Source of the DNA: a virus
Virus record (IMG/VR): IMGVR_UViG_3300037558_000224
Location: 1-34,648 of that record
DNA: 34,648 nucleotides
Direction: 5' to 3' (one strand)
Shown: piece after piece, positions 962-31,308 of the stretch
How the letters are laid out: each line of letters opens with the position of its first letter
Position numbering within the stretch: the first letter of the stretch is position 1
The notes under the pieces: generated by a model
The model's input: only the letters and a program-made list of their open reading frames with translations
Told to the model about the DNA's origin: nothing
The model's database searches: none
Program-made: the position numbers and the translations under genes

Positions 962-1203
962 CAGCACCTCTCTGCTATGTAGTCGCGTAGCTCTGATCGT
1001 GTGATGATGCCCATGCCTTGGCAGACAGGGCAGACCTCATGTGTCGCACTAGGCTCACCCGAGCTATCGAAGACCGCTGCGCCCTCTCTGAAGCCTCGAT
1101 CACACGATGACGAAGGGCAGGGCACAGAGGCACTCTCGGGTCCGTAGTTATCGTAGGGTCGCAGCGATGATGACTTAGGCCGCCGAGGATATGTCAACGA
1201 CAT
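961..1203 (-). CDS. Small cysteine-rich (zinc-ribbon-like) protein
   Basis: This 80-residue protein has paired cysteines: C29 and C34 (CPSSSC), then C58 and C61 in CPVCQGMG, plus C80 at the C terminus. The CPVCxGxG form resembles the zinc-binding repeats of DnaJ-type proteins, so a small zinc ribbon is likely. No catalytic domain is visible. The ATG at 1203 follows AGGAGG at about 8 nt, which favours it over the GTG at 1206. The gene overlaps the end of the ribonucleotide reductase gene by 29 nt in another frame. It may bind nucleic acid or a protein partner; I cannot assign a role. Confidence 0.75.
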   Translation of the reverse strand: MSLTYPRRPKSSSLRPYDNYGPESASVPCPSSSCDRGFREGAAVFDSSGEPSATHEVCPVCQGMGIITRSELRDYIAERC

Positions 1204-3172
1204 CACACACGCCTCCTGTACACGCTAGCTCCTGAGATGCAGTGGTATGGTCGCGGCCCTGTTCGTAGTCAGCTAGCTTCGACCAGTCCACGTTCTGCGG
1301 GATATGCTCAAGCAGGCGCTCGTACTGTGCAGGCGTGATGTCTTGGTAAGGTGCCTGCTCATAGGTGTGGTCGCTGTGGGGCAGGAAGCTCACGCCCGAC
1401 ATCAGATCAAAGTGCTTGAACACCCAAGCCCCCACTGCAGGCCACTCATGATCTCTCACGCTGACCGTGATCGAGGGCTTATGACAGCAGAAGTTCGTTT
1501 GATACTCCAGCCACATCTCTAGTTGCTCGATGGCCGTCATATCATTGCGTGTGAGTGCGCCAGCCGGTGCTTTCATTGGGAACGAGAACACGGTGGTCGT
1601 GGCACCATTGTAAACGCAAGGAGCGTGAGGAAAGCCTGCGTCTCTCATGAACGAAGTCACTGGGTCGTGGTTGTCGCCTCTCACGGTCCTGACATAGTAT
1701 GGCGAGTGCCTTGCGTGTATCCCAGAGGCACTGTCAACAAGGCTGCTCACAGTCCCACTTGGTTTGACACAGGTGACAGCCGCCGCCGTGTTAATGCCTA
1801 ACTTTGTGGCCCACTGATGGTTGGTCGTGATAGCCACGTTGCGGAGGTGTCGAAGCAGGGCACCGAGGCCGTATCCATTCATGCCATTAGTGTACGGGTT
1901 GTCCATGATGCCGGTCATCGACACACCGAGCAAAGCCTCCTTTTCTGTGTTCTCACGCCAGATCGGACGCAGATAAGGAAACGACGTCAGCGTGGCCTGT
2001 ATCGTGCCCAAGATAGTCGCCAGCCTGATCTTGCGCTCAAGGTCAACCGGAGTATCCGTAGCTCTGACCACGACCTCAGTGAGGTTGCAGAACTGACCTC
2101 CTGTCGCCGGTATGCCTTCGCCTGTCTCAGGATCAATGCGCTGTCCACGTAACACGATCTCACTGCAGGGGTTCGTCCCGAACTCGTTCATGTGGTCGCG
2201 ACCTATCATCTCAGCATGTCGCCGCGCAGCTTCCCTGTTGAAGATGCCACGCTCACCTGAGCCACTCTTAGCCAGCGACAGCCATTCCTCCATGAACTCA
2301 GTGCTCGTGGGCGTGTGCTCATATGCAACGCTGTTGTTCGATAGAGCAAAGTGCTGATTGTCCTTCCACCACTCGCCTGACTTAGCCAACCGCATGTCAT
2401 CGTCGCCTAAGTCCGACAATGAGATCAATGCTGACCGGCGCACCCCGCCAACGACCACCACTTGGCCCACCATGCAGATCAGGCTGTGGACCTCGATTGG
2501 TGTCAACTTGCGACCCTCTGCGCCTTTAAAGATCTTGACTGTGTGGTTAAAGAGCTTCTCTAGCGGCTCAGGCCCACTGGCACGGCCACCAAATGTCTTG
2601 AGCGGGGCACCGGCAGGCCTCACACGGCTGAGATCCCAGTCTGGTTGTCTGCCCATCCACAGTAGATTGATGAGGTCTTGGAAGGCGTAGGCCCATCCCT
2701 CTTTAGAGTCCTCGACAATGATCAACTCGGACCCATCAATGATAAACGGTGGCACCTGTGGCAGGCTATCGACATACTTCTGTTCGCAGCTAAAGCCGAC
2801 CCCCGTCCCATTGAGTAAGATGTAGAGCACTTCGCTGAACGTCTGAGGATGGTCGATAGGCGTGTAGCTGCAATTGAATCCTGCAATGTTGCTTCGATCT
2901 AACGCAGGCCCCGCAGTCATCAGCGCACGCATCGAGGGCATGACCTCGCACCCAAGGATCGCCTGCTCTAGCTCTTCGATAATCGGAGTATTCTCATTGT
3001 CGTCACCGATTTCATTGAAAACGACGTTATCGATGTACCGACCGACAGTCTCGGACCAAGTCTCACGTCGCCCATCAATGAACTTGGCATCAATGAACTT
3101 GGCATAGCGACTGGTGTGGATGAACCGTTGGAACTCGGTAGGTAAATAGTTACTATTGTTATTGTCAGTCAT
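1175..3172 (-). CDS. nrdJ: Class II (adenosylcobalamin-dependent) ribonucleotide reductase
   Basis: The 665-residue enzyme reduces ribonucleotides to deoxyribonucleotides for phage DNA synthesis, using coenzyme B12 as radical source. Visible marks are C101 in FNCSYTPID and the active-site motif NPCSE with C336 and E338. The C-terminal redox pair is C651 and C656 (ACTGGVC), which regenerates the active site. There is no sign of an R2 subunit or a glycyl-radical motif, which fits the one-subunit class II type common in marine phages. At about 5-10% shorter than the Lactobacillus enzyme (739 residues), it is a normal phage length. The start overlaps the DUF3310 gene by 8 nt (ATGACTGA), suggesting translational coupling. 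Residues 24-33 carry a tandem AKFID-AKFID duplication. Confidence 0.95.
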   Translation of the reverse strand: MTDNNNSNYLPTEFQRFIHTSRYAKFIDAKFIDGRRETWSETVGRYIDNVVFNEIGDDNENTPIIEELEQAILGCEVMPSMRALMTAGPALDRSNIAGFNCSYTPIDHPQTFSEVLYILLNGTGVGFSCEQKYVDSLPQVPPFIIDGSELIIVEDSKEGWAYAFQDLINLLWMGRQPDWDLSRVRPAGAPLKTFGGRASGPEPLEKLFNHTVKIFKGAEGRKLTPIEVHSLICMVGQVVVVGGVRRSALISLSDLGDDDMRLAKSGEWWKDNQHFALSNNSVAYEHTPTSTEFMEEWLSLAKSGSGERGIFNREAARRHAEMIGRDHMNEFGTNPCSEIVLRGQRIDPETGEGIPATGGQFCNLTEVVVRATDTPVDLERKIRLATILGTIQATLTSFPYLRPIWRENTEKEALLGVSMTGIMDNPYTNGMNGYGLGALLRHLRNVAITTNHQWATKLGINTAAAVTCVKPSGTVSSLVDSASGIHARHSPYYVRTVRGDNHDPVTSFMRDAGFPHAPCVYNGATTTVFSFPMKAPAGALTRNDMTAIEQLEMWLEYQTNFCCHKPSITVSVRDHEWPAVGAWVFKHFDLMSGVSFLPHSDHTYEQAPYQDITPAQYERLLEHIPQNVDWSKLADYEQGRDHTTASQELACTGGVCDVVDISSAA
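3074..3103. repeat. 15-bp in-frame tandem duplication in nrdJ
   Basis: ATCAATGAACTTGGC is present twice in direct succession (3074-3088 and 3089-3103). It duplicates five residues (AKFID) near the reductase N terminus without changing the frame. The two units are identical, which points to a recent slippage or duplication. Confidence 0.85.
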
Positions 3173-3404
3173 TGATTGCTTTGCCTTCTAGCTGATTGAG
3201 ACGCATGTCGATGTACCGCCGCGCCTTCTTAAGATCTGTGATTTCGGATTCATCAGGGGTCATACCGACATAATGTTTCGAACCGGCGCGGACTGTGTAT
3301 TTGATCACGTTGCCAGCCCAGAAACTCAGGCCGTTGCCCATGATGAATGTGCTTGGTTCGATTGACCATTTGGCATAGTGATCAGGTGATTTAATGATGC
3401 TCAT
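3165..3404 (-). CDS. DUF3310 family protein (SaV-like)
   Basis: This 79-residue protein has the hallmark order of DUF3310: DHY near the N terminus (residues 8-10), then LSFWAGNVIKYTVRAG, then DLKKARRYIDMRL. The family is very common in phages and is sometimes annotated as a nucleotide kinase or MazG-like protein, but its biochemical role is not settled. It sits between a hypothetical gene and nrdJ, overlapping the first by 4 nt (ATGA) and the second by 8 nt. It is therefore part of the nucleotide-metabolism end of the operon. The family call is strong; a direct function cannot be given. Confidence 0.88.
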   Translation of the reverse strand: MSIIKSPDHYAKWSIEPSTFIMGNGLSFWAGNVIKYTVRAGSKHYVGMTPDESEITDLKKARRYIDMRLNQLEGKAIND

Positions 3405-3952
3405 GTCTTAGCCCCGAGCCTATGCTTGTCGCGCATGTATCTCTCGTCCCGCTCGCGCTCTTTTGCATCAATGACGTGGCCGCAGTTGGCCCTGCCTTTA
3501 GGCGTGAGCCGCCACATGCCCTCGGTCTCCGCTGGCTCAATGAAGTCGCGCATTTTAAGGATGTCGAAGATGTGCTGCACATGACGTTTGACGCAAAGCT
3601 GACTAGTGGCGACGTTCTGCACAGTGTCTCCCAAGTGATCCATCAGCAGCATGTGCTCATAGGTCCTCAGTGCAGCCTTGTGGACAGGCAGACGGGCCTC
3701 TCTGGTCACTGCAGTCAGCGAGTGCCGAGGCTCGGGCTCAGGGCGGTAGATCTCAGCCTCATGAGCGGCGATAAGCTGCCCGAACACGGTCTCTTCGGCT
3801 TGGGTCATCGGGGCCAACTTCGAGCCCCTGTTGCGATAGCTAAACAAGTGCTTCCAGTAGCCGCTTAAGACGACGCCCTTGAGCGGGTGAGGCGGCGCAG
3901 ATCCGAAGTGCTTGTTGTGTGGCTGGCGCATATAATGTGGATCAAGTGTCAT
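3401..3952 (-). CDS. Hypothetical protein, possibly with a winged-helix-like C-terminal half
   Basis: I do not recognise a named family in this 183-residue soluble protein. The C-terminal half (about residues 90-160) reads as helices followed by a segment containing LKMRDFIEPAET then WRLTPKGRANC. This is the usual look of a winged-helix domain: recognition helix, then a wing with 'L.P.G'. The N-terminal half is basic and proline-rich, with HPLKGVVLSGYWKHLF. It overlaps both neighbours by 4 nt (ATGA), so it is certainly translated within the operon. A DNA-binding or regulatory role is only a suggestion from predicted fold features. Confidence 0.7.
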   Translation of the reverse strand: MTLDPHYMRQPHNKHFGSAPPHPLKGVVLSGYWKHLFSYRNRGSKLAPMTQAEETVFGQLIAAHEAEIYRPEPEPRHSLTAVTREARLPVHKAALRTYEHMLLMDHLGDTVQNVATSQLCVKRHVQHIFDILKMRDFIEPAETEGMWRLTPKGRANCGHVIDAKERERDERYMRDKHRLGAKT

Positions 3953-4509
3953 TGTGCTTGTCCCCCCCGCCGCAGGGGCTTAGCCAGAAAGAACAGGAGA
4001 GCTGCAGCAATAACTGTGACCAGCACTTTGCCAAATATCTGACCCTCAAGATGAGCAAGTGAACCGAAAGCGATGCTTAAGAAAAGCACACTATCAACCA
4101 CGCTGCCGACTACTCCGCTGGCAAGAATGCCCAACTCGCGACTGCGTTCTCTTATGCGGGAGTAAACCGCAAAGTCGCTCAACTCGCTGACGCCGAACGC
4201 GACAAGTGACGCAATGGCGATAAACGGGTCGGCCAGCATGTACGACAGCACCGCGCCAACAAGAATGGCAGCAAGAGCAACTTTTGCCCCTAGCCACTCA
4301 TGCACCGCATCGCGCAGCAATAATGCCACGCCGATCATTAATACGCCTGAAGGGGCCATGATGCCAAAGCCCAAAGGTATCAAGCACGGTCCATCTATGA
4401 TGCAAACAGTGCCTACATTGTGGATCATCCAGTTCGCCGTAGGTATAGTTGCGGCGTAAAGTGCAGCGGCGACATAGCCAGCTTTGTTTCGGTCAATCTC
4501 TATCATCAT
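3949..4509 (-). CDS. VUT family (YhhQ/QueP-like) queuosine-precursor transporter
   Basis: This 186-residue integral membrane protein has about six hydrophobic segments. Family marks are NW near residue 27, then PLGFGIMAPSGVLMIG, then LLRDAVHEWLG, SELSDFAVYS and VGSVVDSVLFLSIAFGSL. VUT/YhhQ proteins import 7-deazaguanines such as preQ0 and preQ1 across the inner membrane. The start is the ATG at 4509: AAGGAG lies 8 nt upstream and the ATG overlaps the previous stop as ATGA. Coding frame upstream of this point is an accident. Its partner is the adjacent DpdA-like gene, which would use the imported base. No preQ0 biosynthesis genes are visible in the window, so salvage is the simplest reading. 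Confidence 0.88.
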   Translation of the reverse strand: MMIEIDRNKAGYVAAALYAATIPTANWMIHNVGTVCIIDGPCLIPLGFGIMAPSGVLMIGVALLLRDAVHEWLGAKVALAAILVGAVLSYMLADPFIAIASLVAFGVSELSDFAVYSRIRERSRELGILASGVVGSVVDSVLFLSIAFGSLAHLEGQIFGKVLVTVIAAALLFFLAKPLRRGGQAQ

Positions 4510-5186
4510 ATCATCATCTCCTTTTGTTCTGCTCTGACAGCCCAAAACGCTGGGCATTGCACGGCATCGATCCGTCGGGCCATGCGCTCTGGGCAAATGT
4601 TTAATTCGTTGTGATGGCGAGCCACGTTGGCGCTGTCGGCACTGGCAAACGGCCACTTATCGCCGCTCAGAGCGAGGCCACGCAGCATGTGTATCCAAGG
4701 CGTTATTCCGCGCTTCACGATGGCGTTGAATGCCTCGTCTGCTCTGCGCTCCCATGCTGCGCTTCCGACCTGCCAGTATCGACCAGATGACCCAAAGCAA
4801 AGTTTGCCGAAACCAAGATCAAGCAGGCGCAATAGATGCTCAATCGACTCTCCCATATGCCATACAACAGCACTGCAATCGTGTCGGTGGGGCCACTGCT
4901 TGATTAGATGCAGATTATCGTCAGCCGTGCCATCGATGACGTCTGGCACGACAGCCCAATGCGGATGTGATAATCGTGGTTCGAGCCACTTGTAATAGCC
5001 GTTCCAATCGGGCTCTTTACTCTGCGTGTAGGCAGTGAAAGCGCCATTGTCCCACATTACGCTCTGGCCGTTGAGTAGGCACCAGTCGCCGTCACGCTTG
5101 TCGGCGAAGCTGACGCAAAAGTGCTTGCCTGCCATTGCCAGTATTTTAGCGTGAGGCGTCACTGGCGTCCCGTGGTAATGTATCAT
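4506..5186 (-). CDS. TGT-fold protein, DpdA-like DNA/tRNA base transglycosylase
   Basis: This 226-residue protein resembles short phage members of the tRNA-guanine transglycosylase superfamily, the DpdA group that swaps guanine for a 7-deazaguanine in DNA. It opens with MIHYHGTPVTP. Candidate TGT landmarks are D46 in MWDNGAF (like the DSGGF substrate-binding motif), D82 and D85 in PDVIDG, and LCFGSSG around 129-135. D184 in FASADSANVAR lies where the nucleophilic aspartate is expected. It lacks the C-terminal zinc-site cysteines of bacterial Tgt. It is coupled by a 4-nt overlap to the VUT transporter gene, which supports a base-exchange role. I infer DNA as substrate from the phage context; tRNA is possible. 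Confidence 0.78.
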   Translation of the reverse strand: MIHYHGTPVTPHAKILAMAGKHFCVSFADKRDGDWCLLNGQSVMWDNGAFTAYTQSKEPDWNGYYKWLEPRLSHPHWAVVPDVIDGTADDNLHLIKQWPHRHDCSAVVWHMGESIEHLLRLLDLGFGKLCFGSSGRYWQVGSAAWERRADEAFNAIVKRGITPWIHMLRGLALSGDKWPFASADSANVARHHNELNICPERMARRIDAVQCPAFWAVRAEQKEMMI

Positions 5187-5943
5187 TGCTCTTCTGTGGC
5201 TCCCATAGTTTGATTGTTGATGTGTCTTGGTCCCAGTCCTCGAACCTTAGTATCCGAGCGCACCTCGCTTGCTGGAGGGCGTCGGCTGCTGTGAGCCCCG
5301 CCTTGAGATACGCGGCGACCACCAGATCCCAGTGTGGCTGTGGACCCAGTACCTTGGCGGCTGTGACTGCTCCGATGCGGGGGCATCCCATGTACCCATC
5401 GGTCGGATCGCCAGTCAGGGATTGCGTAAGAAACGCCCGATCAGCATCGGCGACTGAGATGTCGTGGTGCTCCCCTGACACGGGGCGATAAAGCTTGGCA
5501 GGCAGGGTCAGCATGTCTTTGTCGTCGCTGACAATGACACCTTTGCTGTCGGGCGCAGTCGCAAGAATGCCCATGATATCGTCGGCTTCTAAAAACGGCT
5601 CTGAGTGCCAGAGATATGTGTCGCGTGCCCATTGCACCGCAGCCCCATAGCCCACCGGCTTGCGTACTTTCTTGCGACCGCCTTTGTAGCTGGGCAGCAC
5701 TTCTTTTCGAAAGTTGTCACGGTCGCTAAAGCACAGGATAAAGTTGGCCGTGTCGAGAGCTTCACAGACCTCCTGCAGCGTCCTCTGGAAGATCGACTTG
5801 GCCTCTTTGAGGTCAGTCTGTAGCGACCATAGATCGTCGCCCCAATCGACTTCCTCCTCGGCGGCAGCACATGCCCTGTATAGGTACAAGTCCGCATCAA
5901 TCAGTAGTATTGTTTCGCTTAGAAGCTTCTCGCAGTATTTCAT
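5146..5943 (-). CDS. 5'-3' exonuclease, FEN family (T7 gp6-like)
   Basis: This 265-residue metal-dependent nuclease would degrade host DNA and remove RNA primers during phage replication. Acidic motifs typical of the PIN/FEN fold are LLIDADLYLYR (D16, D18), SDRDNFRKEVLPSYKG, EADDIMG and VSDDKDML. The helix-hairpin-helix DNA-binding segment follows as GDPTDGYMGCPRIG then AVTAAKVLG. The length is close to T7 gp6 (300 residues). It lies directly after the polymerase block, as expected of a T7-type replication module. Its 5' end overlaps the 129-codon gene by 47 nt and its 3' end overlaps the DpdA-like gene by 41 nt, both in different frames. Confidence 0.93.
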   Translation of the reverse strand: MKYCEKLLSETILLIDADLYLYRACAAAEEEVDWGDDLWSLQTDLKEAKSIFQRTLQEVCEALDTANFILCFSDRDNFRKEVLPSYKGGRKKVRKPVGYGAAVQWARDTYLWHSEPFLEADDIMGILATAPDSKGVIVSDDKDMLTLPAKLYRPVSGEHHDISVADADRAFLTQSLTGDPTDGYMGCPRIGAVTAAKVLGPQPHWDLVVAAYLKAGLTAADALQQARCARILRFEDWDQDTSTIKLWEPQKSNDTLPRDASDASR

Positions 5944-25365: not shown

Positions 25366-28300
25366 TTACGCGGCGAACTGTTGCTGTGACAGAGCACCGG
25401 CTTGGGGTGACAATGCGCCCGCAGGCATTTGCTGGCGCTGTTGCTCTTCCTCTTCCTCCTCGGCGCGACCGTTGAGCATCATGGCGAGAACGACGGCGAC
25501 GATGGTTGCGAATGGGTAGGCGTGAAGCTTCAAGTCTGGGTTGCCCGAGGCGTTGAGGTTCTCTTTAATTAACCGCGAGGTGGTTGGTGCAACGGCTTTT
25601 GCCAGACGTGGGTTCACAAAGTACAAGAGCACGGGATCAACAGCCCTCTCGTCTGCTTGGTTTATATAGTCCAAGAAACGATTGACGCGGGGCGTCTGTG
25701 ATGGGTCATCTTTACGGGCTTGCAGTGCCGCCATGACCCGACGAACAGGCCGTCGTTGTTTGGGGTTATTCTCAACGTAAAGATCAATGTTCTTTTGGAT
25801 ATTGTCGATCTCTTTGTAGACGCGCTTGCGGACACTGTCGCTGTATTCTGAGTTGTCCTGCATCATACGGTCAATGACGCTTTCAAAGCCGCTGTCTTTA
25901 GCCGCTGCGTGACCAAGCTCATGTAATACAGTGGTCAGTGCATAGAGGTCGTTGACGTTACCAAGCGTCTCAGCTTGAGCACCAGCGTTCATGCCCCAGA
26001 CAGTGCGACCTAGCTCGGAGTAAGCGCCTCTGATGCCTTTAGCATTCTCTGTCAGTGGGCGACCCATGTCGTCAAACATCTCTTGCTGGCTGTCAAACAG
26101 ACGAACACTGACGTTAAGAGCTTTACTAAGTTGCAAAGCGGCATCGATGTCTTGGATGCCGTCAGCGTACTTTGTACCGGCCTTGCCGATCTCAAACGCA
26201 GGGCGAACGAAGGGAAGCTGTGCTTTCACTTGATCAGGTGTAGCAGGCTGGGAGCCAAGCATCTTGTTGACCAGCGACTTCATGTTGAGCGGGGATTGCG
26301 GTTGTGGCTGCTGTGTTAAAGCGCCTGCGCTCTGGTCTGCAATGTCTTGGTCGAAGGACTGCTCGATCATTTCGTCCGGTGCGATGTTCTCAGACCACGT
26401 CCATGAAGGCATTACGCCTATCTTTTGGTCTGCAAACTTAGTGTCCTCAACACTGGCAGTTTGGTTGTTTTCTCCGTGCGGGCCATAGTTCAAATACGAG
26501 TTCTGACCTCGCGTTTCGCTAGTCATTGCGCCTCGGGCAGGGCCAACAAACAAACGAATGTGAGCTTGGAACGCATTCTCTTCGCCGCGTGCTCGGAAGC
26601 CTGATCCCTCTAATCCATGACCAAACGCATCGTGTACGGCTCTGAATAAATCATTATACAGTACATCTTTGGGGGAGCCATCTTCGTTTACCCAAGTTTC
26701 GCCAGACGTCTCCAGCAAAGGGTTGTCATCGAAGGTTGCATTCTCGTCGCTTCCGTAGCCTTCATCAGTTGGGAAAATGCCCATACGCTTGTTTAAGCGG
26801 AGGTCCTCCAGCGCAGTGACTGGGCTGTCCCCGTAGCCACTGTCGGGGTCAATGAAAAAGAAGGTGTACCCGTCCTGCACAAGAGCGTCATACTGGGCTT
26901 TGGTTTGCCTAATCATATCAGCATATGCAGCTTTGACCGCTGGATCGTTAGGCTGATCTTTCATCTGATCGTAAGCTTCTGCCACTCTTGCGCCAAAAGC
27001 AGGGTCTACATTTACAAACTCGCCCTGTGCAACATACGGGATATTGTTTTCGGCGGCGTACTTTTCGACGACCTTGACTAGGTTTTGGATCGGGCCTTTG
27101 TGGCCTCGGAGAACCGGCGCATCTTCAAGCGGCGTAAGCTGCCCGTTCGAATCCCTGCGGCTTCTTCCTCTGCCTCTGTCGTTGGCCTGTTTGCCTCGTA
27201 GTATGCCTGCTGGCTCTTGGTCAAAGGATTGTCCTGCGTCGAGGCTGTTTGTTCCTCCGTTAACGGCATCAAGGGCCCGTCCATCGGAAACTGCTTGATC
27301 TTGCCGTAATTCTTCATCAGTTCTTCGAACTTGCTTGCCATGTTCTTTTGCTTTCTCCGCTAAGGCCTTAAGGTTTACTTCATCTCTGAAATACCAAGGC
27401 GCATTCCCACTTTGTGATACGCGGAATTTACTTGGAATAACCCCGCTTTTCGCGCTTTTTACCGCTTCTAAGAAGGAAGTAAACTCTGGGACGGTGAATT
27501 TAAAGTCCCCAGCATTGGGAACATTGTAAATAAATCCCTTTTTGCCATCAATGATGCCGTATCTAGCGCCATAAGCAAAGGCCCCATATTCGCCTTCTTT
27601 AGCCATAACACCGTCTAGCGGGTTAGGGTCACCTTTTGCCCGTGCTAAAATAGCGTCTATTGTTGCATGAGAGGCTTCCTGCTCTGATGAGGCCACCCAC
27701 GTTTCCCAGTGATAGCGTCCAAGGCTAGCGACTTCTGGCCTGCCAATGTCTTGGTATATTTGCGGGAGCCTGCTTAATAAAGATTGCTCTAATGCTTCGT
27801 AAATGAGCAGACCCCTTGCGCCGTTTGTCAGAGTTGAAAGCTGGGAGCCAGTGACAGTCTTGCCCTTGTCTTTAAAGCCATCATATAAGTTAAGGCCATC
27901 AAAACGGCCATCGTTCCACATCTGCCGCATCTGCACACGGTCCATAACGACCACGTCATCAAAACCGGCGACCAGCAGAGTGAATGAAACTACTTTGTTA
28001 TCTACGCCAACGCCTTCGCCCATCCGCATGAACTGACGCCGGATCTCTTTGCCGGTGGACTTCGGATCGGCCATCATGTCGTGAATGACTTGCAACCTCG
28101 ACCGTCCATCACCAAGGCCTGCGTCACGCGACATTTTCAACAGGAAATCTCTGCCAAAACCATTGAGGTTGTGCATTGCTCCTGCGCCAGATTGCCCAGA
28201 GCCTCGCGGTGCTGTTGTTTCTGCCCATGCGTAAAACGCAGGCATTTGGTCTTTTAAAGTTCCATCAGCCGCTGCGCCTATCCACTTATCAATGCCATCA

Positions 28301-31300
28301 AAGCTGTCAATGAATAGACTTTCTTGCGTGTAGGGGCTAACGCCTTTTGAAAGAAACGACCAAAGGAATAGACGCCCTGTATCGTTAACACTTATCGTAC
28401 CATCGATGTAGGCCTGACGAAACTCCCGCGCATTTGCAAAACCGTGATCAGCGTCTGCAATTTGACCAGCCGTCAGCTTTGATAACAGCGCCTGCGCTCC
28501 ACCATTGTTTATATCGTCAATAAACTGCCGTGGCGGGGCGGGGATGTCTCTTGTTGCTAGGGCGTCACCCATCATGTTAGTCCAAGACGTTACCGACTCG
28601 GCAGGGTCTGGGTAGCGGGATAAAACCTCATCAATTGCATTGATCTGCGCTGAAGCATTTTTGTTGTTGGTTTTGATCGTGAATAAGGGCTTACCATCAC
28701 GCGCTTTTGGAGCTTTTACGCGCAAGTGTGGCATAAAACCGTGGGTGTTTTTAGTCGCTTTTATCTGCCCGTCCACTACCGGCATAGGCACACTCAGACT
28801 TGCAGTTTGCTTGAACACAGGCTTGGCAGGGCCTTGCTTTGGTGCTGGCCCAAAGTCCTCGTCAAGCGCCAGATCAGTGCCGGTGCTTGTCGGGGGCTGC
28901 TGGCGACCACTGCGGGCTTGCTGTCGCAGAACACGCTCGACGTAAGGCATGATGTGTCGATTGATTAGGCTTTCGCTGATCCCGTCGGACTTGAGCCTGC
29001 TTACGACATCCATAGCCGCCACTGCGGGGTCACTGCCAAGGTTGTACTGTAGTTCATCGAGGGCAGTCAGCAGTCTACCGCGCTCGGCAGGGGTCAGGCT
29101 TGTGTTTGCAGCGAGGCCTTGGCGCAGCTTCTCAAGCTGGGCGCGGTTGTCATCGATGCCCTGTTGCACGGCTGGACTGCGGCCCTGTGGCTGCTGTTGC
29201 TGCTGGGCGGTGCCTGCTGATGACTGGGCCGTAGAGGGTCCGAAGCCTGCGCGTCTGCGGGCTCGTTGTGCAAGTGGATTATCAGGCTGATCTTCGCGTA
29301 AGGCGTCAAGCTCTTCGCTCTGATTCAAAGTACCGTTGATAGCTTGAATCCAAGGCGAAATGTCGTCAATACTGTTGCCTTCACCAGCCAAGTTGCGTCG
29401 GGTTTGGTCAACGTAAACCATGACGTCGGGAGTAGTGTCTGGCGCAGTTTCAATGTAATCGAGAAGCTTGTTTAAGCCATCTGGGCTAAGGCCGGTGCCT
29501 GCTAGTATGCTTCCGACTGGGCTGTTGATATTGTCGCCGCCATCTCTTTTATCATTGTACGCTTGTAGACCAGCCCGTGTTGACGAGGCTTGCTGTGCTT
29601 GCTGTAAACGCTGCTCTCGGAAGCTTGGGGGACGAGGCGCGGGCAGACCAGCTTTGTCTTTGTTCTCTTTAATGAACTTATCAACACTGCTGTAAGTGCC
29701 TCGGGCTTTGTCGAGACGCTGTCCTATACTGGCGACGGCTTGCTGTCCTAAAAGAGATAGTCCGCTTGTGTTCAAACCAAAAGACAAAGAAGCGATTGGA
29801 CGCACTACGCGCTCTACGGCCACAGCAGATTTGTCGTAGCCTGTTCCCCCGCCTAGAACAGAGAACATATCAGTAAACTTAGAAAGTTTGCCTTGATAAT
29901 CGTTGTTGTGAACCTCGGTCATTATCTGAGATTCGCGGATCAGGTTCATCAAGGCCTGACCTTCGGTGTAACCGCCAACCAAGTCTTGCAGCGCAAGGAA
30001 GTTCTCTGCAGTGACAACCGACTTTGTCTTGTTTCGCGCCATCTTCTGAGCAACAGCAGCGCGAACCTTTTTAAAGCGCTGGTCAAAGGTATCTTGGTCG
30101 CTTTTGCGAAGCAGTTCTTTTAGGTCGGCTGCTTTATCTGCAATCTCACCTACGAGGTCTGTGTGAGCCGCTTCTACGACAGCCCTTGCCCCCGTCTGGG
30201 ACATTTTGTCGATATCTTGGAGGTCAAACGTGTTGCCATTTAAGTCGCCGCCGGTAGCAATCTTATCAAGACGACGCGCAAATGTAGCTGCAGCCTGCTG
30301 GTGCTCTCTAGTAAGGTTCTCAATGGCCTCAATGGAACCATCATCTTTGAATAGCCGAGTAGCCTTGCCTGCGGTCTCTGTGGTGGCGGTCATGGCCCCA
30401 CCCATTGCTGCACCAAGAACTGCTGAATCTATGTTTCGGTCAAGAACCTCTTTGCCAGTATACTCGGCACCTTGTGTGGCCGCTGTCCCCATAATGACGT
30501 TCTCTTGAGCCGCCTCGGTCACGCCCTCGATAGCCATGCCGCGCATGATATTCTTTGCAATCTTACCTTTGCCTGCCTTACGGAGTGCAGCGGTAATCTC
30601 ATCAAGAGACATAGTCAGTAGTTTGTCTTTTGAGATGCCCAGTGCTTTACTAGCGCCAAACCTGTCAAGCAGACCAACTATTGTACCGCCAATCACAGCA
30701 GCATTTGGGTTGTAGTCGTCTTCGCTTACTTTGGACTTTAGTTCATCGGTGGTTTCACCAATTCCCATTCCAACAGTCCCAACAGTAGTGAGGCCCGCGA
30801 TTAAAGTTGCGATTGGTACATGGTAAGGCGCAGTAAGAGCCGCCGCTGCATAGCCCCCATATGTTGCAAGCGTAGGTATGGAGTTCTCAACCATCTTCTC
30901 GCCAACAAAACCAAGTTTGTCTGCAGCGCCTTCTTGGTCTAGAAAGCTGCCTTGATATGTTGACTGGTAACCACGACGGGCAATGTCTGCCTCGTTCTTT
31001 TCGACAACAGACCGTCCATATTGAGCCATAGGACCGCCAACAGCGGGGACCGCCTGCTCAATGAAACGACCAGTGCCTTCAATAGCATTGCCTACAAGCG
31101 TTTGCGCCCTATCCACTGCAAACATGCCTCGGCTTGCGTTAGGGTCAACGTAACGCTCAGGCTGCTCGGGCTGGGCGGCTGCGGGCTGCTGTTGTCCGCC
31201 CTGCTGTGCCATCATCTGCTCTATGGCTGCATACGCGGCCTCGGGGTTAGCCACGCCTTCGACCTTGAACTTGCGCCCATCGGGCAGTTCAACTTGGAAA

Positions 31301-31308
31301 TTAGCCAT
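25366..31308 (-). CDS. Giant multi-domain virion/ejection protein with zinc-protease motif
   Basis: This 1980-residue protein begins MANFQVELPDGRKFKVEG, a small beta domain often seen at the start of large phage proteins. Residues about 143-184 are hydrophobic and membrane-active in look. Long Gln/Ala helical linkers follow (650-800). A domain at 1559-1600 carries HDAFGHG, RGEENAF and ETRGQN, a signature of large phage polyvalent proteins. HELGH at 1796-1800 is a zinc metallopeptidase motif with a hydrophobic lead-in (LYALTTVL). A hydrophobic helix near 1930-1946 precedes a Glu run and Gln-rich tail. AAGGA lies 9 nt upstream. Such giants are usually carried in the head and injected with DNA. 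The role is inferred; no activity is shown. Confidence 0.8.
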   Translation of the reverse strand: MANFQVELPDGRKFKVEGVANPEAAYAAIEQMMAQQGGQQQPAAAQPEQPERYVDPNASRGMFAVDRAQTLVGNAIEGTGRFIEQAVPAVGGPMAQYGRSVVEKNEADIARRGYQSTYQGSFLDQEGAADKLGFVGEKMVENSIPTLATYGGYAAAALTAPYHVPIATLIAGLTTVGTVGMGIGETTDELKSKVSEDDYNPNAAVIGGTIVGLLDRFGASKALGISKDKLLTMSLDEITAALRKAGKGKIAKNIMRGMAIEGVTEAAQENVIMGTAATQGAEYTGKEVLDRNIDSAVLGAAMGGAMTATTETAGKATRLFKDDGSIEAIENLTREHQQAAATFARRLDKIATGGDLNGNTFDLQDIDKMSQTGARAVVEAAHTDLVGEIADKAADLKELLRKSDQDTFDQRFKKVRAAVAQKMARNKTKSVVTAENFLALQDLVGGYTEGQALMNLIRESQIMTEVHNNDYQGKLSKFTDMFSVLGGGTGYDKSAVAVERVVRPIASLSFGLNTSGLSLLGQQAVASIGQRLDKARGTYSSVDKFIKENKDKAGLPAPRPPSFREQRLQQAQQASSTRAGLQAYNDKRDGGDNINSPVGSILAGTGLSPDGLNKLLDYIETAPDTTPDVMVYVDQTRRNLAGEGNSIDDISPWIQAINGTLNQSEELDALREDQPDNPLAQRARRRAGFGPSTAQSSAGTAQQQQQPQGRSPAVQQGIDDNRAQLEKLRQGLAANTSLTPAERGRLLTALDELQYNLGSDPAVAAMDVVSRLKSDGISESLINRHIMPYVERVLRQQARSGRQQPPTSTGTDLALDEDFGPAPKQGPAKPVFKQTASLSVPMPVVDGQIKATKNTHGFMPHLRVKAPKARDGKPLFTIKTNNKNASAQINAIDEVLSRYPDPAESVTSWTNMMGDALATRDIPAPPRQFIDDINNGGAQALLSKLTAGQIADADHGFANAREFRQAYIDGTISVNDTGRLFLWSFLSKGVSPYTQESLFIDSFDGIDKWIGAAADGTLKDQMPAFYAWAETTAPRGSGQSGAGAMHNLNGFGRDFLLKMSRDAGLGDGRSRLQVIHDMMADPKSTGKEIRRQFMRMGEGVGVDNKVVSFTLLVAGFDDVVVMDRVQMRQMWNDGRFDGLNLYDGFKDKGKTVTGSQLSTLTNGARGLLIYEALEQSLLSRLPQIYQDIGRPEVASLGRYHWETWVASSEQEASHATIDAILARAKGDPNPLDGVMAKEGEYGAFAYGARYGIIDGKKGFIYNVPNAGDFKFTVPEFTSFLEAVKSAKSGVIPSKFRVSQSGNAPWYFRDEVNLKALAEKAKEHGKQVRRTDEELRQDQAVSDGRALDAVNGGTNSLDAGQSFDQEPAGILRGKQANDRGRGRSRRDSNGQLTPLEDAPVLRGHKGPIQNLVKVVEKYAAENNIPYVAQGEFVNVDPAFGARVAEAYDQMKDQPNDPAVKAAYADMIRQTKAQYDALVQDGYTFFFIDPDSGYGDSPVTALEDLRLNKRMGIFPTDEGYGSDENATFDDNPLLETSGETWVNEDGSPKDVLYNDLFRAVHDAFGHGLEGSGFRARGEENAFQAHIRLFVGPARGAMTSETRGQNSYLNYGPHGENNQTASVEDTKFADQKIGVMPSWTWSENIAPDEMIEQSFDQDIADQSAGALTQQPQPQSPLNMKSLVNKMLGSQPATPDQVKAQLPFVRPAFEIGKAGTKYADGIQDIDAALQLSKALNVSVRLFDSQQEMFDDMGRPLTENAKGIRGAYSELGRTVWGMNAGAQAETLGNVNDLYALTTVLHELGHAAAKDSGFESVIDRMMQDNSEYSDSVRKRVYKEIDNIQKNIDLYVENNPKQRRPVRRVMAALQARKDDPSQTPRVNRFLDYINQADERAVDPVLLYFVNPRLAKAVAPTTSRLIKENLNASGNPDLKLHAYPFATIVAVVLAMMLNGRAEEEEEEQQRQQMPAGALSPQAGALSQQQFAA

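Follow-up and report, generated by a model that had tools for sequence, protein, structure and literature searches.

When dpdA is deleted from E. coli phage CAjan, the phage loses dPreQ0 (PMC6884629). Group-3 phages, exemplified by Salmonella phage 7-11, encode DpdA alone; Hutinet et al. (2019, PMC6884629) put forward the idea of uptake, left the base source for DpdA-only phages open, and saw phage YhhQ homologs that were uncorrelated with any phage group. Pantoea phage MED16 has DpdA as its only such gene and carries dADG in its virion DNA, at about 0.13% of G and with no restriction protection from the enzymes tested (PMC8306585). Mycobacteriophage Orion, which also has DpdA only and infects a host without the pathway, is unmodified; Mycobacterium smegmatis lacks the whole pathway (PMC6884629). 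Phage-encoded preQ0 transporters are known from Enterobacter phage EC151 and Seuratvirus (PMC8310023), where they accompany 7-deazaguanine genes that in EC151 include DpdA, and from archaeal HCTV-1 and HCTV-16 (PMC8651126), again alongside 7-deazaguanine genes. In bacteria, TGT and QPTR (YhhQ) form salvage pairs that serve tRNA with a full-length TGT, some of them as TGT-QPTR fusions (PMC11130926). A TGT-family fold also occurs in Cap10 of type IV CBASS (9ntn), a remodeled enzyme whose ligand is a protein terminus modified with NDG and which works with the QueC-like Cap9 on a protein conjugate (PMC11996544).

The locus we describe here lies in a whole IMG/VR record of 34,648 bases (the window), classed as linear and possibly incomplete. 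Like MED16 and 7-11, it encodes a DpdA of the same PHROG and no preQ0 synthesis genes; those two phages have no PF02592 importer, whereas the window couples DpdA to an importer of its own. With EC151/Seuratvirus and HCTV-1/-16 it shares a phage transporter placed with a 7-deazaguanine gene, but these encode FolE, QueD, QueE, and QueC (or a preQ0/G+ pathway), while the window is without QueC and QueD and has only import and exchange. Its import-then-exchange logic would be that of the bacterial TGT-QPTR pairs, with a small DpdA that does not have the TGT zinc motif. Its DpdA resembles Cap10 in fold (Z 15.0), yet no CBASS genes occur among the PHROG matches of the window, and PADLOC is negative for both proteins. 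A lone DpdA, the uptake idea, and transporters within full preQ0 pathways are thus already known. The near-obligate, biosynthesis-free pairing of DpdA with VUT appears to be undescribed so far, since we did not find this two-gene form in the open-access literature searched, subscription papers being outside its scope.

The first-pass annotation had described a T7-like phage with an integrase, and the gene content bears this out. PHROG scans and Pfam identify a single-subunit RNA polymerase, a gp2.5-like SSB, endonuclease I, PolA, and a primase-helicase, and a tyrosine integrase (PF00589) is encoded in the same window. Named phages are related to it only distantly, the nearest being Bordetella phage BB8 by RNA polymerase (31%) and Roseobacter phage CRP-7 by terminase (39%); at the DNA level, its first 25 kb matches none of the 50,697 phage records searched. 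A ribonucleotide reductase gene at 1175-3172 (phrog_367, E 1.3e-170) matches a B12-dependent class II insertion domain and is adjoined by a DUF3310 ORF at 3165-3404. A 1980-aa ORF at 25366-31308 is probably an internal virion protein; its sole PHROG match is weak (phrog_3170). The features of the DpdA/VUT locus are as follows.

5146-5943, minus strand: 5'-3' exonuclease gene (phrog_107, E 1.5e-63; PF02739), its 3' end overlapping the dpdA start by 41 nt
4506-5186, minus strand: gene for a small DpdA-like (TGT-fold) base-exchange enzyme, predicted, 226 aa, ATG start and TGA stop
4518-4522, minus strand: AGGAG, likely the VUT ribosome-binding site, within the dpdA 3' end and 8 nt upstream of the ATG
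4506-4509, minus strand: ATGA in which the VUT start overlaps the dpdA stop, alike in many relatives
3949-4509, minus strand: gene for a putative importer of the VUT/YhhQ type (PF02592), 186 aa, with six TM helices predicted
3401-3952, minus strand: downstream 183-aa ORF, identified as an open reading frame only, overlapping VUT by 4 nt (3949-3952)

Both genes of the proposed two-gene arrangement lie where the first-pass annotation had placed them, on the minus strand and joined by the ATGA. The VUT ORF can be extended to a GTG at 4656; we took the ATG at 4509 as its start because this start is conserved. Purifying selection is indicated by pN/pS values of 0.15-0.34, with synonymous sites near saturation. 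The 41-nt overlap with the exonuclease gene shows that the cassette sits inside the replication gene array. The 4-nt overlap had also been read as a sign of coupling. It is real, but overlaps are common among the neighboring genes here (4 and 41 nt on either side), so that alone it is weak evidence, and we set it aside. The 183-aa ORF has no significant family match in PHROG, Pfam, or PADLOC searches and is not shown to be a member of the cassette.

The strong evidence for a cassette is instead comparative. We surveyed gene neighborhoods with local profiles, seeded separately on VUT and on small DpdA. Seeding on VUT returned a TGT/DpdA-like ORF adjacent and on the same strand in 86 of 88 viral loci (34 of the 35 clusters obtained at 85% identity), and the two unpaired loci are both cut at contig edges. 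Seen from VUT, pairing in phages is near-obligate. The small-DpdA survey drew on the best 80 of 532 candidates, those closest to the window. In it, 66 of 74 non-redundant viral loci have an adjacent VUT, a share that may fall among more distant relatives. Among these 74 loci, again from the best 80 of 532 candidates, VUT lies downstream in 47, upstream in 19, and is not adjacent in eight; on a quick tree, supported branches force at least seven changes in the upstream label, perhaps one fewer. A second DpdA clade, typified by mycobacteriophage StevieRay gp54, is VUT-paired in 8 of 8 viral loci, and cluster P mycobacteriophages and Rhodococcus phage ReqiPine5 show this pairing as well. A third clade, of the phiLM21 type, is paired in only 3 of 37 loci and serves as a negative control, indicating that adjacency to VUT is no generic property of phage DpdAs. 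Across gene orders and DpdA clades, independent phages show the pairing far more often than chance would allow.

Named isolates with the pair include Pseudanabaena phage Pam5, Rhizobium phages RHph_N3_2 and RHph_X2_30, phiLM21, and StevieRay; Aminobacter phage Erebus has both genes, at separate places. DpdA loci without VUT have no other sizeable multi-TM ORF beside DpdA, and so give no sign of a replacement importer. One apparent phage VUT without DpdA (MT837598.1, locus L251) was discarded, as a reading of its ORFs found GlnE-, ferrochelatase-, and GrpE-like neighbors and the record is probably bacterial chromosome.

The assignment of the transporter to the VUT/YhhQ type is upheld by a PF02592 match (E 8.7e-14; 52.6 bits against a Pfam gathering score of 27.2) and by an S-component-like fold. 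Assignment to the narrower TIGR00697 queuosine precursor transporter equivalog fails, at 44.8 bits against a cutoff of 50.95, which places the protein in PF02592 at large and leaves its substrate uncertain. Its structure model (pLDDT 90, six TM helices) best matches ThiT (3rlb) at Z 9.5, a moderate value for a helical protein, and the first 21 structural matches are all ECF S-components, related ECF membrane subunits, or BtuM. We regard it as a PF02592/COG1738-type protein with a predicted S-component fold. COG1738 members carry preQ0, preQ1, or queuine, differing by protein (PMC11130926), so the exact base is not readable from sequence and any of the three is possible.

Taken with the relationship of the enzyme to phage DpdA, detailed below, these data are probably best explained by a two-gene cassette that salvages a 7-deazaguanine and uses it to modify phage DNA. 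In this mechanism VUT would act as a solitary S-component-like COG1738/YhhQ importer that raises the level of free 7-deazaguanine base in the cytoplasm, most likely preQ0 but perhaps preQ1 or queuine. Guanines in phage DNA would then be exchanged for the imported base by the small DpdA in a TGT-type transglycosylation, D184 probably serving as nucleophile and D46 probably as acid/base. Such a phage need not encode FolE, QueD, QueE, or QueC. From the comparisons presented here we infer the import step, the base transported, and the activity on DNA and its modification, along with any target motif and any protection from nucleases.

No gene for preQ0 biosynthesis is visible in the window, as had been noted at first pass: PHROG scans and QueC and PTPS profiles are negative in this linear and possibly incomplete contig, and FolE and QueE were not seen in PHROG scans, a search that covered the window only. 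The pattern extends to other carriers. With profiles that detected their positive controls, neither QueC nor QueD (PTPS) rose above its cutoff in any of 50 viral records (0 of 50 for each). This set, which includes a few relatives without VUT, comprised the window, 42 IMG/VR records, and seven complete phage genomes. A 98-aa QueD-like ORF in Caulobacter phage DMCA (L024:5705-6001) was rejected, as it scores below the PTPS cutoff and does not have the cysteine before HGH; it directly precedes DpdA, and this phage has no VUT. Together with DpdA kinship and the pairing, the absence of QueC and QueD supports, as the best inference, the earlier proposal that a preQ base is imported and then exchanged into DNA.

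A different source of the base is the host itself. DpdA might use preQ0 made by the host, with VUT only boosting the supply or serving the queuosine metabolism of a lysogen; we consider this unlikely, though it fits several observations. Bacterial carriers of the gene are mostly alphaproteobacterial, and the gene is apparently in prophages; no further copies were found in 397 genomes of one carrier's order, so it is rare in chromosomes. Of the 35 bacterial genomes with the gene, 28 have QueC, which means that import is not always needed and may boost host supply as well as replace it. Several relatives persist without VUT, and both MED16 and 7-11 are modified without it (PMC8306585, PMC6884629). 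Weighing against host supply is the tie between VUT and DpdA in nearly every carrier virus, including paired cassettes in phages of M. smegmatis, a host without the pathway (PMC6884629). Among bacterial carriers, VUT occurs in six of seven genomes without QueC versus 9 of 28 with it (Fisher one-sided p 0.016), but six of those seven are MAGs, and the indication that VUT is commoner where host QueC is missing is only suggestive. In three carrier genomes (G019:C2, G025:C26, and G035:C24) QueC lies beside a weak TGT-like match, in what look like chromosomal dpd islands.

Some of these observations also count against the salvage cassette that we favor. VUT is adjacent in only 14 of 33 non-redundant bacterial relatives, mostly apparent prophages; modification occurs in lone relatives that have no VUT, MED16 among them; and MED16, the closest characterized relative, is sparsely modified and was not protected from the restriction enzymes tested. 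In addition, the window contig may be incomplete. By contrast, the unmodified state of Orion is what salvage leads one to expect of a phage without a supply, if Orion is indeed VUT-less.

The identity of the enzyme bears on what it would modify. The 226-aa protein matches phrog_887 (E 3e-37), which also takes in the DpdA of CAjan and proteins of 7-11 and MED16, but no Pfam or NCBIfam family, PF01702 included. Profile alignment with hhalign recovers MED16 gp38 (E 2.4e-55; 34% identity) and CAjan DpdA (E 4.3e-9, prob 96), whereas nine cellular TGTs give no match (prob 0.3). The CAjan alignment pairs DNGAF with DSGAF, ADSAN with CDSSS, and H166 with a histidine. Residues D46, D82, H110, H166, R169, and D184 are invariant in an alignment of 35 homologs, and D46 and D184 line up with the CAjan DSGAF and CDSSS motifs; D82 may be equivalent to TGT D156, judged by position only. 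D46, D82, and D184 of the catalytic aspartates suggested at first pass therefore stand, while D85 varies among homologs and is ruled out.

Structure prediction agrees with the TGT fold proposed for this gene. The AlphaFold model is confident (pLDDT 90.1, pTM 0.87). Foldseek alone placed generic TIM barrels on top and did not single out TGT, and a PDB sequence search using profiles gave no useful match, but a second look with VIA did single it out, with archaeosine TGT (1iq8) at Z 15.0 over 214 residues and the Zymomonas (Z. mobilis) TGT 4htb at Z 14.6 (2.8 A over 201 residues). The protein does not have the TGT zinc motif CxCxxC and has no room for the TGT C-terminal part. By sequence it is a DpdA-related protein that sides with phage DpdA rather than with tRNA TGT.

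These properties argue against a second alternative, in which the pair serves to increase the queuosine content of tRNA from host or phage, VUT importing a queuosine precursor and the TGT-like enzyme acting as a small tRNA transglycosylase. The predicted TGT fold would suit such a role, and PF02592 transporters do serve tRNA queuosine salvage, some bacterial ones being fused to TGT (PMC11130926). Family, profile, and size nonetheless led us to reject a tRNA TGT reading of the enzyme; moreover, no tRNA gene was found in the window, and 33 of the 35 carrier bacteria already have a cellular TGT. We give a role in tRNA only a slim chance.

Action on a protein-bound deazaguanine, in the manner of type IV CBASS Cap10 and perhaps as a counter-defense enzyme, seems highly improbable. 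Cap10 (9ntn_B) does tie for the best structural match at Z 15.0 and is itself a TGT-family enzyme that binds a modified protein terminus (PMC11996544), but TGT-fold proteins all score alike (14.2-15.0). Neither protein of the pair matches a PADLOC defense model, sequence kinship is with phage DpdA, and a coupled importer argues for consumption of a free base.

That the two genes are chance neighbors and the transporter imports an unrelated vitamin was already disfavored and is very improbable, because, although overlaps are routine in dense phage gene arrays and VUT is named for "vitamin uptake," the pairing holds in nearly all non-redundant VUT clusters with differing DpdA clades and gene orders.

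If the salvage cassette is what it seems, a near-obligate importer would offer a concrete, testable answer to the question of the base source in DpdA-only phages, and Pam5, RHph_N3_2, and StevieRay are isolates that carry the pair and could be used to test salvage. More tentatively, and with the balance of probability on the other side, we raise the possibility of a widespread biosynthesis-free strategy: phages would supply the importer themselves, and modification would depend on an environmental micronutrient base. Uptake and exchange would then be the entire system, and paired phages could modify their DNA even in hosts that lack the queuosine pathway, as with the cluster P phages and M. 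smegmatis. Phage DNA modification may in that case hinge on scavenged micronutrients, tying restriction evasion to community chemistry. The pair might also serve as a compact two-gene system for introducing 7-deazaguanines into DNA.

Two families of small proteins recur near these genes. A conserved protein of ~81-86 aa (GGLEPRFIIERADG...) lies between or beside DpdA and VUT in Pam5, RHph_X2_30, DMCA, and two others (L021:17005-17265, L023:5512-5757, L024:6723-6977, L012, and L059), and is possibly a third, optional member of the cassette. Another family (MNIYRYSFTCRCPTDKTMVTYHLTIESP... in RHph_X2_30) recurs near DpdA in about a dozen loci, among them L007, L008, L009, L019, L023, L025, L081, L088, and L090.
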